From contig JAJRXK010000116.1 of the NCBI GenBank assembly GCA_024276305.1, positions 1 to 64,000 of the forward strand: a stretch of 64,000 nt of DNA, read 5' to 3'. Under the pieces are notes generated by a model, which did not search any database, was not told where the DNA came from, and saw only the letters and a list, made by a program, of their open reading frames with translations. Positions 35,595 through 42,647 of this stretch are shown one piece after another (within the stretch, counting starts at the first letter, position 1; each line of letters opens with the position of its first letter). This DNA comes from Candidatus Krumholzibacteriota bacterium. GTDB lineage: Bacteria > Krumholzibacteriota > Krumholzibacteriia > JAJRXK01. The position numbers and the translations under genes are program-made.

Positions 35595-37652
35595 TCAGAG
35601 GAGCAAGAGCTCGTCGGTCTCGTCCGCTTCGGGGTGGGCCCGCTCCTCTTCGAGAACCTTCAGGAAGGCCTCGATGACCCGCGGGTCGTAACGCATCTCC
35701 CAGTTCTCCCGCAACACGTCCACGGCCTCGTCGTGGTCGAGGGCCTTGCGGTAGGGGAGGTCGTGGATCATGGCCACGTAGCTCTCGACCACCGCGACGA
35801 TCCGAGCCCCGAGGGGAATGGCGTCGCCGCGCAGGCGGGAGGGATAGCCCTGACCGTTGAAACGCTCGTGGTGATAGCGCACCACATCGCAGGTATGCCG
35901 GGAAAAGCTCATGCGTCGCAGGATCTCGCTCCCCGCATCGGGGTGAGCTTCGATCTGCTGCCACTCTTCGGGAGTCAGACTTCGCGGACTTCGGAGGACC
36001 AGGTCGGCGATCTCGATCATTCCGATGTCGCGCAGCACCGCCCCGTAGCGCAGATCTCTCATCTCGTCGGGGTCGTAGCCCAGGGCGTCGGCGGTGTGCT
36101 GAGTGTAGCGGGCGATGAGCTCGGTCCGTTCACGGGAGCCCGCGCCGGATTTCTGTTCGATGAGGGTGATCAGGGTCTTGGCGACCTCGAGGGTCTGTTC
36201 CTCGAGTTCCTTCATCGCGCGCAGGTGCTCGGCGGCCAACCCGGCCTGCCCCAGGAAGGCATCGAGATAGGCGGGGTCGAAGCGTCCTTCCTCGCGGCTG
36301 CGGCGCACCGCCAGGGCGAGGATTCCGAAGAAGACTCTTGGCCCCCGGAAGGGGACCAGCAGGTCGATTCCGCGGTTGCCGAGGGCCGCGGCTTCCGGGC
36401 CCCAGGTCCCGGGGTCGGCTTCGATCGGAGCGAGGGGCTTGGTCAGCCGGGAGACGGCCTTGGTGGTGCGCGGTCGCAGGGTGGGCAGATTCGACTGGTC
36501 CATTCCGTAGACATGGGCCGGGAAGAATCCGTCGTCCTGTTCCACGTAGAGAATGGCGGCGGAGATCCCCATCTCCCCGATGAGGCTGATGAGCAGTCGG
36601 CTCACCAGGCGATCCTCGGATTCGATGGTGTGGAGTTCGCGGCTCAGCCGCAGGACCGTGCGCTGTCGTCGCAGTTGGTTGCGGAGGTCTTCGGTGGGCT
36701 CGGAGGTCGGGGACTCCTTCGGGGACCGGGGAGCGACGGCGTGGCCCACGTGGCGGGCCAGGAGGTCGATGGCCAAGAGATCCGATCGGCCCCGTTCCTT
36801 GGCTTGGGTCCCCACCAGCGCGATGCCTTCGAGGGTGCCTTCGACGTGAATGGGAACCGCGAGGTCCGAACGCAAACGGTCGAAGCTCTGTCTTTCCTCC
36901 CGCTCCAGCAGGCCGGAGAGATCCTCGCGCGAGACGGGTTCGTCGCGACGTCGCAACTCGGCCACGAAGGCGCCGGTGGCCGGGATCTGGAGGTCGCACT
37001 CTTCCACCGCAGTGGAGGCGGTGAAGCGGTAGTGATCTCCCTCCAGGCAGAAGAGCGTGGCGTGGTCCACCAAGGCGGTGCCTCGGAGCAGGCGCACCAC
37101 GGTGGGCGCAGCCTGCTGGAGGTTCGCGGCCGAGGCCAGGGGTTCCTGCGCTGCGGCCACGCTGTGGAGACTGGGGTCGTAGTCCTCGGTGGGTTCGAAG
37201 GCCAGGGTCTGTTCGACCAAGGCCTCGATCTCGTCTTCGCTGTGCTGGTCGGCCGGGATCTCCGCGGGCGAAGCGAGGTCGTCCGAGCCCGGAGCCTTCC
37301 AACTCTCGAAGGTGGGGATGAGGTCAACGACTCGGTCCACGAAGACCGGTGCGACGCCCTGGGTCTGCGCCATCAAGCAGCGGCGAACGCTGTCCGAAGC
37401 GCCCACGATGCACAGAGGTAGCTGTCGCTCGGCGAGCTCTTGGGCGTAGTCGCCCAGGCTGGCCGCGACACTCCCGCCCATGCTCCGCAGCTCCGAGACT
37501 TCCAGGGCCAGGTGTCGGTCGGGTTGGTCGCGACAACGAGAGAGGAGTCCGTGGACCGCCGCCTTCTCTCGGGTCCCGAGATGTCCGGTGACCTGCACCA
37601 CGAAGAGGTCGCTTCGGGGTGGATCCAGAGTCTGGAATGTGGCTCTTTGCAT
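35595..37652 (-). CDS. STAS-GAF-GAF protein with degenerate HD-GYP domain
   Basis: A 685-residue cytoplasmic protein. Residues about 10-120 look like a STAS domain. Two GAF-like sensor domains follow (about 175-310 and 335-480). The C-terminal part (about 485-665) is HD-GYP: PEEWQQIEAHPDAGSEIL, RYHHERFNGQGYP and IPLGARIVAVVESY. HD-GYP enzymes break c-di-GMP using metal bound by several His and Asp residues. Here the first His position is Arg509, the HD pair is Arg541-Asp542, the lysine of HDIGK is Met, and the later Asp is Glu623. Only HHE and GYP persist, so it is probably a sensor or scaffold, not an enzyme. It follows the HTH gene by 31 bases. Confidence 0.85.
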   Translation of the reverse strand: MQRATFQTLDPPRSDLFVVQVTGHLGTREKAAVHGLLSRCRDQPDRHLALEVSELRSMGGSVAASLGDYAQELAERQLPLCIVGASDSVRRCLMAQTQGVAPVFVDRVVDLIPTFESWKAPGSDDLASPAEIPADQHSEDEIEALVEQTLAFEPTEDYDPSLHSVAAAQEPLASAANLQQAAPTVVRLLRGTALVDHATLFCLEGDHYRFTASTAVEECDLQIPATGAFVAELRRRDEPVSREDLSGLLEREERQSFDRLRSDLAVPIHVEGTLEGIALVGTQAKERGRSDLLAIDLLARHVGHAVAPRSPKESPTSEPTEDLRNQLRRQRTVLRLSRELHTIESEDRLVSRLLISLIGEMGISAAILYVEQDDGFFPAHVYGMDQSNLPTLRPRTTKAVSRLTKPLAPIEADPGTWGPEAAALGNRGIDLLVPFRGPRVFFGILALAVRRSREEGRFDPAYLDAFLGQAGLAAEHLRAMKELEEQTLEVAKTLITLIEQKSGAGSRERTELIARYTQHTADALGYDPDEMRDLRYGAVLRDIGMIEIADLVLRSPRSLTPEEWQQIEAHPDAGSEILRRMSFSRHTCDVVRYHHERFNGQGYPSRLRGDAIPLGARIVAVVESYVAMIHDLPYRKALDHDEAVDVLRENWEMRYDPRVIEAFLKVLEEERAHPEADETDELLLL

Positions 37653-37683: not shown

Positions 37684-37908
37684 TTAGACGAGCTCTTCAG
37701 TCAGCCAGCGATCGAGGACGGACTTGAGGAAGCGCCATTCGCTCCCGACCTTCTTGGCCGGGATCTTTCCTTCTTTGGCCAGGCGGCACACGGTCTTCAC
37801 GTGCATTTTCAGGTAGTCCGCCGCTTCCGTGGAGGTCATGACCGGCGAAGCTTCGCTCTCGGCACCAATGTAGATGTTGCCGTATTCGGTCGCGGTTTTC
37901 TCACTCAT
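37684..37908 (-). CDS. Small excisionase/MerR-like HTH DNA-binding protein
   Basis: A 74-residue protein whose core MTSTEAADYLKMHVKTVCRL and the following GKIPAKKVGSEWRF match the excisionase/BldC-type helix-turn-helix (HTH_17). The first 22 residues are extra. It should bind DNA as a small regulator. The ATG follows AAGGGG. A strong sigma-54-type promoter stands 57 bases upstream, and the STAS-GAF-HD-GYP-like gene follows in the same orientation, so the two form an operon. There is no recombinase nearby to suggest a true excisionase. Confidence 0.85.
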   Translation of the reverse strand: MSEKTATEYGNIYIGAESEASPVMTSTEAADYLKMHVKTVCRLAKEGKIPAKKVGSEWRFLKSVLDRWLTEELV

Positions 37909-38137: not shown

Positions 38138-40174
38138 TCATGCGGGGTGGCAGAGCTCGGCGAGAATCTCTCCGAGCTCGCTGCCGCGAAAGGGATCGCG
38201 CCAGCAGGCGTGGGCATGGGACTTGGCCGCGACGTCGGCCGCATAGGCCTCGGCCACGGAGGTGGTCAGAATGATCTTCAGCTGGGGATGTTCCTGGCGG
38301 AGGCCGGCAAAACTGGCCTGGCCTTCTTCTCCCAACCGCAGATCCGAGATCAGGACATCGATGCGATCCTGCGCCAACATCTTCTGCGCCTCGGCGAGCG
38401 AGGAGGTGGCCTGGGCGCTGAGCCCCTGCATCTGCAGAGTGCGCATCAGGTCGCGGCGCCGGAACTCCGATTGGTTCACGAGCAGCGCGCGGAGAGTCCG
38501 ACGTTTGGGACGGGCCGGGACCGGGACGAAACTGTAGATGCTCTCCTCGGGGTGGGGACGTGACGATACCCGAGGGGTCGAGGATCCCTGGAAGCGCTGA
38601 CGCAGCAGGGCCCTCACGTCCAGCACCGGAATCTCCTCGCCATCGAGGTCGAGGCTGGCGTGGGCGATTTCTTCCCATCCGGCCGGGGCCTCTCCCAATT
38701 CGCGAGGCGCGTGGAGCTCGAGCGAGCCATCGCAGCGCAGGGCCAGTCGCTTCTCCACCGACCCGAAGATCACCGTGTGCTCTCCGGGTCGATGTTCTCG
38801 GCTGGTGCCTCGCGAGGCTTCGGCCAGGTCGATGAGGGGCAGACTTCGATTCGGGAGGAGCAGGGTCTCCTGCCCGTCCTTGTCCACATCGATGGGGGAT
38901 TCGGCCAGGATGTCCTCCACCAACGAGGCGGCGATGGCGATGCGTTCCTTCCCTCGGGTCAGGACCGCGTAGCGGGGATGGTCCACACTGAGGGGGAGAG
39001 TGAATCGGTAGCGGGCATCCTTGGCCCGCGACCCCGCTTCGAGGAGCCCATCGTTGCGCATGAGCAGGGCTCGGGCGCGGCGGAGTCCGGGAAGCATGGC
39101 CACGTGATCGGCATCGAGCTGGGCCGGGCTCAAGGTCTGTTCGGCCACGTCGTCTCGCACGATCCCCAGGAGTCTTCCCTGCTCGGAGCGGAGGCCCACG
39201 GTGACCGCGACCGGGCGCTGCAGACCCCCACTCGCGATCTCGTCGGCGATGTCTCCGAGCAGGGCATCGATGACCCCTCGGACGGTCTCGTGCATCGAGG
39301 GATCGACCGACCGGGCACCCCCGTGTGGACGAAAGACCAGCGGAACCCCGGCCTGTTGGGCGGCCTCCTGGAGAGTGGCGAGGGCGGGGGCGTAGAGAGG
39401 GTCTTGCTCGGGGTGCTTGACCGTCGGACCGAGGTCGGGATCCCGGGGCGTGGCCGGCGCGCGCTGGGCCTGGGACCGCTGCTCCAGCTCCTCCTCCATC
39501 TCGCGGAGGCAGCGCAGCGAATCGGAGAGGTCGGTGCGGAGGACCTCCCATGTCGCGGCGGAATTGTCGCGCTGCATGACCTCGCGCAGTCGAGCCACGG
39601 CGGCGTCGAGGAGTTCGGTGGCCTCCTCCACGTCACTGCTGACATAGGGGAGCGTTCTCTCCGATTCCGCGTTCGCCGAGGGGGCTTCGGTCTCGGGGGT
39701 GGTCGGCTCGGCCTCGGCCGGAGCTGGGGGCCGGTCCTCGGCCGGAGCGGGGTCGGAAGCGAGGTGGTCGAGACTGCGCGCCAGGAGCTTGCGCAGATCC
39801 TCGATCTCCTCCGCGAAGGGAGTGAAATCCCCCGCTTCCCGACCGCCCCGCTCGAGGTGGCGCATCAGGCTCTCCTCGAGGTCGATCACGCTCTCGAGGA
39901 GGAGGGACTCGGTGGTCCTCAGTTCCGCGCCACTCTTCTCGATGCGTTGGAGCCACTGCAACAGGTCGTCGAGAAAGCTCTGCATCTGGTCGAAGTGCAG
40001 GATGCGGGAGCTGCCGGCCAACAGGCGGGTGGCCATCACCGCGCGGCGGAAGTCCGTCTGAGGGTTGGAGGTGGCCGAGGGATTCTCAGCGTGGAGGGCC
40101 CGCAGCCGGACCAGCTGTTCGGAGATCTGGGCCGAGAAGAGGCCGACCTGCGATGTGTCCACAGAATCCGACAA
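38138..40174 (-). CDS. CheA-like hybrid protein lacking kinase residues
   Basis: A 678-residue protein with CheA-type order. A P1/HPt-like helical domain (about 15-110) comes first. A long acidic, Pro-rich linker follows, then a diverged ATPase-like domain (about 265-395), a CheW-like domain (about 400-530) and a C-terminal receiver (about 562-676). The HPt motif reads ATRLLAGSSRIL, so Arg50 stands where the phosphorylated His should be. The ATPase N-box Asn-His signature is lost (ALLGDIADEI). The receiver keeps Asp611 but has Asn-Gln (567-568) for the acidic pair and lacks the usual Lys-Pro. Phosphotransfer through this protein looks impossible; it may be a scaffold. The TTG start follows GAGGT, 59 bases after the MCP-like gene. 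Confidence 0.82.
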   Translation of the reverse strand: MSDSVDTSQVGLFSAQISEQLVRLRALHAENPSATSNPQTDFRRAVMATRLLAGSSRILHFDQMQSFLDDLLQWLQRIEKSGAELRTTESLLLESVIDLEESLMRHLERGGREAGDFTPFAEEIEDLRKLLARSLDHLASDPAPAEDRPPAPAEAEPTTPETEAPSANAESERTLPYVSSDVEEATELLDAAVARLREVMQRDNSAATWEVLRTDLSDSLRCLREMEEELEQRSQAQRAPATPRDPDLGPTVKHPEQDPLYAPALATLQEAAQQAGVPLVFRPHGGARSVDPSMHETVRGVIDALLGDIADEIASGGLQRPVAVTVGLRSEQGRLLGIVRDDVAEQTLSPAQLDADHVAMLPGLRRARALLMRNDGLLEAGSRAKDARYRFTLPLSVDHPRYAVLTRGKERIAIAASLVEDILAESPIDVDKDGQETLLLPNRSLPLIDLAEASRGTSREHRPGEHTVIFGSVEKRLALRCDGSLELHAPRELGEAPAGWEEIAHASLDLDGEEIPVLDVRALLRQRFQGSSTPRVSSRPHPEESIYSFVPVPARPKRRTLRALLVNQSEFRRRDLMRTLQMQGLSAQATSSLAEAQKMLAQDRIDVLISDLRLGEEGQASFAGLRQEHPQLKIILTTSVAEAYAADVAAKSHAHACWRDPFRGSELGEILAELCHPA

Positions 40175-40233: not shown

Positions 40234-41502
40234 TCAGAGCTCGACAGCTCCGAACTGGTCTAGATCGTACACCTCGTCCCCGGCGACGTCCCCGGCCATC
40301 TCCTCCTCGTCGAGGAGGACCCCGCCGAGTTCGGCGATCTCGTAGATCTTCGCCGAGTCCGGAGTCGGAGCGGATGCGGGGGTCGGAGTGGAGACGGGGG
40401 CCGACGGAGTCTCGGGGGCCGACGGAGTCTCGGGGGCCGCGGCCACGGGACCGGCTTCGGGGGATGCCGCCCACTCTTCGAGACCTCGAATCTCGTGGGC
40501 GATCTGGGACAGGACTTCCGACAGTCCCTCGGTGCTCTGGTCGAGGACCATCACGATGGCGTCGAGGCCCTCGGGACCGCTGCCGCCGCCTCCCTGTTGG
40601 GCGGCTGCGATCTGGTCGGCCTCGCAGACCCGAAGGTCTCCTGCCACCCGCTGGAATCGGGTCGACAGCGAACGCATCTCCTCGGCCGTGGCGACGATTT
40701 CCTCCGCGCCATCTCCGAGGCGGCTGATCTGGAGAGCCGCGGTGATCGCGAGCTTGTTGGCTTCCTCGGCCAGGTCGTCGAGGGTGGTCCGAAGGAGGGT
40801 CAGCCGCTCGGCATTGCGGTGGAGTTGGGCTCGGAGGTCCACTCCGGCCGCCGGTGCGGATCCGCCGGCGGTCCGTTGGGAGAGGTCGGCCGCGCAGTCC
40901 CCGATGGACTCGATGAAATTGCCCAGCTCGCGGTGCTTGGCGCGGAGGGCCTGGGCCTTGGTCCGCACCGGGGTGGTGTCCACACTGGTGGCGGCGATGG
41001 CGGCCACGGTCTTCGCGGCGGCGGCATCTTCGGCCTCGGCCTGACGGGCTCGGTCCAATTCTCTCTCGAGCTGGGCCATCTGTTCGCGGAGCGCGGTGGC
41101 TTCGAGTCGGGCGTCGTGGGCGATCTGCGCGTCTTCCCGCCACCTCTCCACCACGGACTCGATTTCTGCGACTTCGGAGAAGTCTGCCGGGTCGGTCTCT
41201 CGCACGTCCGAGATCTTGGCCAACGACCGCATCAGTTTCTGCTGCTGCTTGCCCCCCCGGACCACCCGATCGAGAGGACGGGCCGAGGTGACGGTGGCCA
41301 GATAGCCCATGAGCCCCAGAGCGGCGACTCCGCCGATGACGATGTAGAACATCTTCACCGTCTCGGGATTCTCCAGATCGAGCTCCCCGTGGAAGAGGGT
41401 CAGATAGGAATAGATGAGCCCGAATCCGGTCCCGACCACCAGGAGGAAGACGAAGAGACCCAGTTTCCAGGGCGAGGTGAGAACGATGCGCTGTGCGGCC
41501 AC
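40234..41502 (-). CDS. MCP-like membrane coiled-coil protein
   Basis: A 422-residue protein with two transmembrane helices (about 12-32 and 51-71) enclosing a short acidic loop, then a long coiled coil. The segment LAEEANKLAITAALQISRLG followed by EEMRSLSTRF mimics the chemoreceptor tip (ETNLLALNAAIEAARAG...VRxLA), but the Glu-Ala-Ala-Arg-Ala hairpin that binds CheA/CheW is not kept. The C-terminal 90 residues are Pro/Ala-rich and acidic. It lacks a ligand-binding domain. The GTG start at 41502 follows CAGGAG. It heads the operon with the CheA-like gene and is preceded by a sigma-54-type promoter. Confidence 0.78.
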   Translation of the reverse strand: MAAQRIVLTSPWKLGLFVFLLVVGTGFGLIYSYLTLFHGELDLENPETVKMFYIVIGGVAALGLMGYLATVTSARPLDRVVRGGKQQQKLMRSLAKISDVRETDPADFSEVAEIESVVERWREDAQIAHDARLEATALREQMAQLERELDRARQAEAEDAAAAKTVAAIAATSVDTTPVRTKAQALRAKHRELGNFIESIGDCAADLSQRTAGGSAPAAGVDLRAQLHRNAERLTLLRTTLDDLAEEANKLAITAALQISRLGDGAEEIVATAEEMRSLSTRFQRVAGDLRVCEADQIAAAQQGGGGSGPEGLDAIVMVLDQSTEGLSEVLSQIAHEIRGLEEWAASPEAGPVAAAPETPSAPETPSAPVSTPTPASAPTPDSAKIYEIAELGGVLLDEEEMAGDVAGDEVYDLDQFGAVEL

Positions 41503-41578
41503 GGCGGTTTCTCCTGCAATGAGAGGTGCGTCCGGGGGGCACGACAGCTGGAAAGGCCCCCAAGCCTCGGGGCAGGCC

Positions 41579-41593
41579 GCAATTCGTATGCCA
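41579..41593 (-). promoter_or_regulatory. Sigma-54 promoter of MCP-like operon
   Basis: The minus strand reads TGGCATACGAATTGC, with GG and GC 12 bases apart and close to the -24/-12 consensus. Transcription would start near 41567, about 65 bases before the GTG. Confidence 0.7.
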
Positions 41594-41761
41594 CCCGACT
41601 TCCACGGCGCAAAAGGGATCAGGAGGCCCCGAAGTGGTGGTTTCCCGCCAACTTTTGGGTTTTCCCCCGGATGTGGGCGTCTCGACCATGCCCCGCCGGA
41701 GGGAGGGATGTTCCCACGAGACGTTGCAATCCGCCCCCATTGGGAACTTCCTTGTGAGAAA

Positions 41762-41776
41762 TGGCACAACTCATGC
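41762..41776 (+). promoter_or_regulatory. Possible sigma-54 promoter of interrupted gene
   Basis: The plus strand reads TGGCACAACTCATGC. The -24 element is perfect and the GC is 12 bases on; the -12 element is ATGC instead of TTGC. The start would be near 41788, about 32 bases before the ATG. The rest of the 41503-41819 divergent gap holds no gene. Confidence 0.5.
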
Positions 41777-41819
41777 GGTCGGAAGCCTCACGACCTGCTT
41801 GCAAACCACGGGGGTTCCC

Positions 41820-42647
41820 ATGCGCGATCTTCCATATCTCGACCTCCACCTCGACGAATCCCAGCCCGGTGCGCCGGACCGAGCTTCGGCTCCCGAATTC
41901 CTGTTGCGCTGCCTCCTGGGCGCTCGGGAGGAAGCCTCCTTGCCCAGCAACGAGGGGGGATTCGACGAGGACGTGAATGTGTATCTGGTGGGTCTGCTCC
42001 AGGATCTGCTCTCGGCGGCCTTTCACGATCGGGCCCGACGCTTCCACTTCTCCCGCGACCAGGATCTCGCGCGGTAAGTGCGGCGCATAGGCGATGATCG
42101 CTACGCCTACCGGGTCTATCGGACCAATGCGGACCACCTGCTCCTGGCCATCGGCCTCTTCCACCATGTCGAGGGTGCGTCGCGGCCGGACCATCCTCTT
42201 CTCCACCGCGAACCCGAGGAGTTCATCGGGAGGGGAGAGACCTACTACTGCACCGCTTCGAATCTCCTCCGCCGCCTGCGGCGGCAGCCTTCGGGGGTCG
42301 AAGTGGCGCTCACCAAGCTGGGTCGGGACTTCGAGAACTACGTGCAGGTCTTGCGTCGGGTCCGGACTTCCTACTTCCATCTGAGCACCCGCTTGGGCGA
42401 GGGAGTGCTCTTCCATCTGCTGCAGTCCGCCCCGGAGGAGGATCCGGCTCAGCGAGGCGCCTCGGACTGCTACGATGCCTTCCTCGACACCTTTTCCCGG
42501 TGGAAGCGCTGTCGGGATGCACCGTCCTGGGAAGCCCTGGCCGCCCAGGTGGAGGAGCTCAAGGCCCTGGACCCCGATTTCCACTTCCAGATGCCCCAGC
42601 CCGAAGAGATCCTCGATCGCCCTCCCGATCCGGAGGCTTCGAGTTGA
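41820..42647 (+). pseudogene. Unknown gene interrupted by one in-frame TAA
   Basis: Two open frames lie in the same reading frame, separated only by TAA at 42075-42077: 85 residues (MRDLPYLDLHLDESQ...SRDQDLAR) and 189 residues (VRRIGDDRYAYRVYRTNADHLL...). The join reads naturally as one 275-residue soluble protein if the stop were Tyr (TAC or TAT, one base away). Codon use is normal throughout and there is no frameshift. A GTG directly after the TAA could allow re-initiation. No family is recognised. It may be a fresh nonsense mutation, a sequencing error, or a readthrough gene. It is divergent from the MCP-like operon. Confidence 0.7.

Follow-up and report, generated by a model that had tools for sequence, protein, structure and literature searches.

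The question raised by this locus is what a protein built like CheA might do when it has no visible route for phosphotransfer. We analysed a window of 64,000 nucleotides from a Candidatus Krumholzibacteriota bacterium (contig JAJRXK010000116.1, positions 1 to 64,000), in which one gene on the reverse strand (P0001, 38138-40174) encodes such a protein of 678 aa, here called psCheA, as recognised by ORF calling, Pfam, profile search, hhalign, AF2 and Foldseek. The start codon is TTG, with GAGG a few bases 5' of it. An earlier note, made from the letters of the DNA, had described a CheA-like protein without a phosphotransfer route, and this was borne out in each domain tested through hhalign, AF2, Foldseek and residue columns.

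Pfam matched only REC (residues 564-668, 35 bits) and CheW (residues 405-526, 24.5 bits) in psCheA, in agreement with the earlier claim that these two folds remain recognisable; Hpt and HATPase_c gave no Pfam match at E<=1, and by Pfam alone P1, P3, P4 and the MCP tip were not detected in the window proteins. A family alignment of 24 psCheA orthologues from five families (A1) was compared with an alignment of 15 canonical CheAs from the same class (A5), and hhalign found the two collinear over 496 columns (probability 98.9, E 1.2e-17). Domain by domain, P1 (E 8.8e-5), P4 (E 1.2e-7) and P5 (E 3e-7) each matched only its own counterpart, the off-diagonal E being never better than 0.08, and P3 matched P3 weakly (E 6e-4, just 23 columns). 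The AF2 model has a mean pLDDT of 80.8 with all domains present, and its best PDB matches by Foldseek (6s1k, 8c5v, 3ja6, 2ch4 and 1b3q) are structures of CheA, either within chemotaxis core signalling units or of its P3-P5 part. An unrelated ATPase fold, which the note had named as evidence against itself, is thus not what the P4 comparison and the Foldseek matches point to. The profile searches and structure prediction it had proposed establish fold homology to CheA for P1, P4 and P5 and, more weakly, for P3, and by these profiles and models the domain order is that of CheA, P1-P3-P4-P5, plus a receiver.

All domains lie on the reverse strand. The P1-like domain has five helices (residues 7-139, 39758-40156; AF2 helices, hhalign and column counts) and is followed by a P3-like helical hairpin (residues 176-237, 39464-39649; weak hhalign match), in which AF2 placed helices at 176-201 and 206-237 with pLDDT of ~70. 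The degenerate HATPase or P4 domain (residues 262-394, 38993-39391) was delimited by hhalign, AF2 and column counts. The CheW-like P5 domain (residues 402-529, 38588-38971) scored above the cut-off of PF01584, and Foldseek matched it to CheW and to CheA P5. The degenerate receiver (residues 562-675, 38150-38491) was recognised by Pfam, AF2 and residue inspection.

The P1 domain retains the fold and lacks the phosphoacceptor His. At the position of His48 of canonical CheA the window protein has R50, as the earlier note stated, or T49 in the register preferred by hhalign (codons 40025-40030); none of the 24 members has His at these two columns, which hold T/N/G/S and R/K/S/T/N. Another intact His in the P1 helix would have spoken against the note; helix B contains none, and helix A has Q20. 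In P4 the N, G1 and G2 boxes of a CheA HATPase are all affected: the N-box Asn, correctly reported as lost, is replaced by D308, the counterpart of N406 in the canonical CheA of this genome, and all 24 members have Asp at this column; the G1 Asp is kept as D341 in 24/24 with the second Gly of G1 gone; and the ATP lid and the GxG of the G2 box are deleted. Pfam HATPase_c matched just 6 of the 24 members, and weakly, and surveys that find CheAs by HATPase_c plus CheW profiles would miss this family. By sequence and model, psCheA fails two defining tests of the CheA kinase family, and for this reason we name it pseudo-CheA and not CheA; loss of catalysis is predicted.

D308, D341 and R388 are invariant among the 24 members in five families, and through the first two of these P4 may still bind some ligand, which counts against the explanation that we favour below. 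A stronger version, in which the degenerate P4 would be a ligand (nucleotide) sensor that binds via D341 and D308 and switches conformation, we regard as unlikely, given the lost N-box Asn and G2 box, the deleted ATP lid, and invariant residues that may be structural.

In the receiver, the acidic pair D-D is replaced by N567-Q568 and the Lys by R659, so the acidic pair and Lys of a response regulator receiver are missing; the Thr is kept as T638. The earlier note was right about Asn-Gln at the Mg2+-binding acids, but the phosphoacceptor Asp remains as D611. This residue would be one entry point if psCheA took up phosphate from a different kinase, as a sink or relay, and a His of P1 helix A, conserved in the Q20 column in 21 of the 24 members, would be the other; the receiver of a neighbouring protein, HD-GYP2, is also intact. 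However, Gln occupies the helix-A position in the window protein and in the two family members aligned with it. The receiver lacks the Mg2+ acids and Lys; most homologues have no receiver, among them those of f3 and f7, the largest family lacks it altogether, and two f6 members have Glu in place of its Asp. Such a sink or relay is therefore improbable in our estimation. In f3, many REC-less proteins carry a short, conserved tail at the C-terminus, (V/I)(P/S)R(V/A), for example L061:8147-9757 and L057:8203-9834.

A profile search with A1 found psCheA as a single-copy gene in 36 of the 37 genomes of f1, f2, f3, f6 and f7 (family labels f1-f8 were assigned by the analysis tool), the lone genome without it, G041, being 80% complete, and in 0 of the 43 genomes of f4, f5 and f8. 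The single weak match, in G038, fell in the reading-frame region that holds the canonical CheA of that genome. The named records with the same locus, which were collected through the neighbouring U189 family, belong to Candidatus Krumholzibacteriota/Krumholzibacteriia, and some are labelled Latescibacterota. In congeneric pairs (NG86) the dN/dS of psCheA was 0.12-0.21, placing the gene under purifying selection; it was 0.20-0.24 for psMCP, 0.11-0.17 for HD-GYP1 and 0.00-0.03 for HTH_17, three neighbours described below. The orthologues of psCheA, and likewise those of psMCP, are about 20-45% identical among themselves, and identity across families is ~20%. This divergence, together with the catalytic residues lost in neighbouring proteins too, might be taken as the mark of a chemotaxis system that was lost and left a decaying remnant, yet the dN/dS values, the invariant non-catalytic columns, the intact copy found singly in genomes throughout the clade and the fixed synteny refute that reading, which we find scarcely credible. 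The earlier observation is confirmed but was understated: psCheA is a conserved orthologous family, and its neighbours are degenerate as well.

The order of the locus is fixed: tilS-ftsH-folP-cdaA face [HD-GYP2]-HD-GYP1-HTH_17-psCheA-psMCP, and psMCP is followed by U189, in divergent orientation, then in most families by a gene resembling nitrilases, and by an alpha/beta hydrolase. psMCP (40234-41502, reverse strand) is separated from psCheA by mostly 5-50 nt across genomes. It likely starts with GTG at 41502; the protein contains a pair of TM helices, a coiled coil, a degenerate MCP hairpin tip and a conserved C-terminal motif, VYDLDQFGAVEL. The AF2 model places the hairpin turn at 262-267, and the turn at the MCP-tip position reads EESNGLALNIALMAARG in an f3 member and EEANKLAITAALQISRLG in the window protein. 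MCPsignal (PF00015) was found in 10 of 20 psMCP members, the best at 1e-6 and below the cut-off, and there was no match in the window protein. The tail is acidic with the near-invariant C-terminal motif VYDLFELGAVEY, which is probably a docking peptide. At 40234-40280 (reverse strand) this C-terminus was read as near-invariant V(Y)DL..(F/L)GAVE(Y/L).

On the other side of psCheA, across a gap of 229 nt in the window, lies the gene of HTH_17, a DNA-binding protein of 74 aa (37684-37908, reverse strand; Pfam, synteny and dN/dS). HTH_17 orthologues in the class share 68-85% identity, and their dN/dS is close to 0; the identities of psCheA and psMCP are much lower. The next gene, HD-GYP1 or psHD-GYP (35595-37652, reverse strand; Pfam and residue inspection), encodes a STAS-GAF-GAF-HD-GYP protein in which HD has become R541-D542 in the window and the other metal ligands are lost. 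RD stands in place of the HD metal-ligand pair in 20/20 proteins; the upstream His of GH.xR and the last Asp are gone too, and HHE and GYP remain. HD-GYP2 (REC-GAF-HD-GYP), further downstream, is intact including its receiver, and the HD is intact in L045. It is present in most module genomes, among them G002, and missing from the window locus and from the G001 and G003 loci. The module thus consists of pseudoenzymes, a highly conserved DNA-binding protein and usually a live-looking c-di-GMP hydrolase.

U189 (41526-42647, forward strand; synteny and relatives) serves here as a conserved syntenic marker, and we claim no part for it in the mechanism proposed below. It has no Pfam match, is usually about 254-300 aa and is conserved in Krumholzibacteriota, Eisenbacteria and Omnitrophota; the window copy carries an in-frame stop, TAA at 42075-42077, which is either a true nonsense codon or an assembly error. 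Many genomes carry a 268-aa gene that separates U189 from psMCP; it was considered as an array-positioning ATPase and rejected, as its sequence reads as a nitrilase-type hydrolase, an assignment made by reading the sequence. The 345-aa and 550-aa genes beside U189 in another lineage set are not homologous to the module and were rejected as parts of it.

The window genome also has a canonical CheA-CheW-MCP locus on another contig, plus flagella (canonical CheA examples are the G000:C11 locus and L060:10692-12755). As the P5 of psCheA is CheW-like, psCheA could be a dominant-negative or tuning subunit in canonical arrays that lowers CheA output. However, H-kinase_dim (PF02895) had no match in ten module-bearing genomes, nine of which were considered after one 67%-complete genome was left out. 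The named genomes are MAGs, and the assemblies behind these absences are 80-97% complete; G008, G015 and G022 consist of a single contig. Among these nine genomes CheW profiles matched only the P5 of psCheA itself or nothing, and in eight neither MCPsignal nor FlhA had a match. In these nine the module thus persists without a CheA kinase domain or a separate CheW. The CheA-less module genomes contradict the tuning-subunit reading for f2 and f6; we reject it and regard it as very improbable, although cross-talk with the canonical CheA, MCP and CheW in the window genome is possible and counts against the explanation we favour. The motility phenotype that the earlier note suggested is unlikely to be general, because FlhA was found in 10 and had no match in 26 of the 36 psCheA-bearing genomes.

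Related proteins were found in Eisenbacteria. Beside U189 there, hhalign matched a TM/coiled-coil protein to psMCP (P 93, E 2.7e-7) and a protein of 600-620 aa to psCheA over late P4-P5-REC (P 97.7, E 1.7e-12), the latter followed by an HD-GYP protein. Their P4 is more eroded than that of psCheA, and the receiver of L076 (VVDD) looks intact by eye. The comparison suggests that the locus may be old, with a kinase that may have been lost early. The proteins in the psCheA position are eroded differently (L076:5722-7587, L093:7272-8831 and L102:5494-6630, the last on the reverse strand); some retain CheW-like and REC domains, and one, judged by eye, apparently has only P1-like and REC domains.

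Because its catalytic residues are lost and it has long been kept beside an equally degraded receptor and second-messenger enzyme, psCheA is probably a structural or signal-relaying part and not an enzyme. The explanation that we favour, and hold to be reasonably probable, is that P0001 serves as the pseudo-CheA in a conserved module of chemosensory origin, which needs no phosphotransfer and acts as a membrane scaffold or relay coupled to c-di-GMP or transcription. Counted in its favour are the collinear alignment, AF2 model and Foldseek matches to CheA, the loss of the catalytic columns in 24/24 members, the single-copy distribution over five families, the low dN/dS of psCheA and HTH_17, the fixed synteny with its short psMCP-psCheA gap, the change of HD to RD in 20/20 proteins beside an intact HD-GYP2, the nine genomes with the module and no PF02895, the MCP-like turn in the psMCP model and the Eisenbacteria homologues. 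Membrane-anchored psMCP would form receptor-like coiled-coil bundles, the tip of which would dock to psCheA through its CheW-like P5, in the manner of an ordinary core signalling unit. The membrane or the short periplasmic loop would be the site of sensing, and P1, the degenerate receiver or psHD-GYP would relay the change by conformation or recruitment. In genomes that have HD-GYP2 beside the module, the output would be this REC-GAF-HD-GYP phosphodiesterase of c-di-GMP; where it has been lost, e.g., from the window locus, the output would be transcription controlled by HTH_17. psCheA itself would serve as adaptor or scaffold, by analogy with the logic of DivL and the layout of Wsp, with no phosphate relay. 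Counting against this explanation, HTH_17 could be an adjacent protein with an independent function, given the gap to psCheA, and D611 is kept in the window protein and the sequence support for P3 is weak.

A wider reading we offer more tentatively, at somewhat less than even confidence: a system for signalling or scaffolding that does without phosphorylation, with roots in a chemosensory array and in c-di-GMP enzymes and made largely of pseudoenzymes (pseudo-receptor, pseudo-CheA and pseudo-HD-GYP), would occupy a fixed, inherited locus across much of Krumholzibacteriota and, more eroded, in Eisenbacteria, working without CheA kinase, separate CheW or flagellum. An architecture kept under purifying selection with its chemistry lost suggests that the array scaffold is selectable for its own sake, and the module offers a natural system for asking what receptor-CheA contacts do without phosphate.

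No matching description of such a kinase-dead CheA family was found in the literature searched, in which subscription journals were thinly covered, so this absence is not proof. A survey of thousands of CheAs takes P1, P3, P4 and P5 as defining CheA and found HATPase_c in every one (PMC10782961). psCheA shares with canonical CheA the domain order, the fold, the optional C-terminal REC and the adjacent MCP-like gene, but lacks the P1 His, the N-box Asn, the ATP lid and the G2 box, and its REC is degenerate. Precedents for a dead HK domain or a His-less Hpt inside CheA are Rhodobacter sphaeroides CheA3, which has a non-functional HK domain and a first Hpt intact with the conserved His, and Pseudomonas ChpA, in which some Hpt domains lack the His and six keep it (PMC10782961); unlike these, psCheA has no phosphate site left in P1 or P4. 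CheV (CheW-REC) likewise has a CheW-like domain followed by REC, whereas psCheA has P1-P3-P4 in addition, and in place of the phosphorylatable REC of CheV its REC is degenerate, and absent in most homologues, including f3 and f7. DivL is a pseudo-histidine kinase whose transmitter fold has turned into a sensor or adaptor (PMC4211667). A similar repurposing of a catalytic transmitter fold is proposed for psCheA, but DivL is not a CheA, has PAS input and has neither a CheW domain nor a linked MCP-like gene. A kinase that works like DivL would bind a phosphorylated response regulator in place of producing one; for psCheA just the loss of catalysis is predicted. Wsp-type systems consist of an MCP, a CheA and a REC-GGDEF protein. 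As is generally known for Wsp, a receptor, a CheA and a REC-c-di-GMP enzyme are encoded together, as they are here, but in our module the receptor and CheA are degenerate, the proposed output is HD-GYP instead of GGDEF, and there is no CheW. By analogy, DivL would be the nearest functional counterpart of psCheA, and Wsp the nearest in layout.
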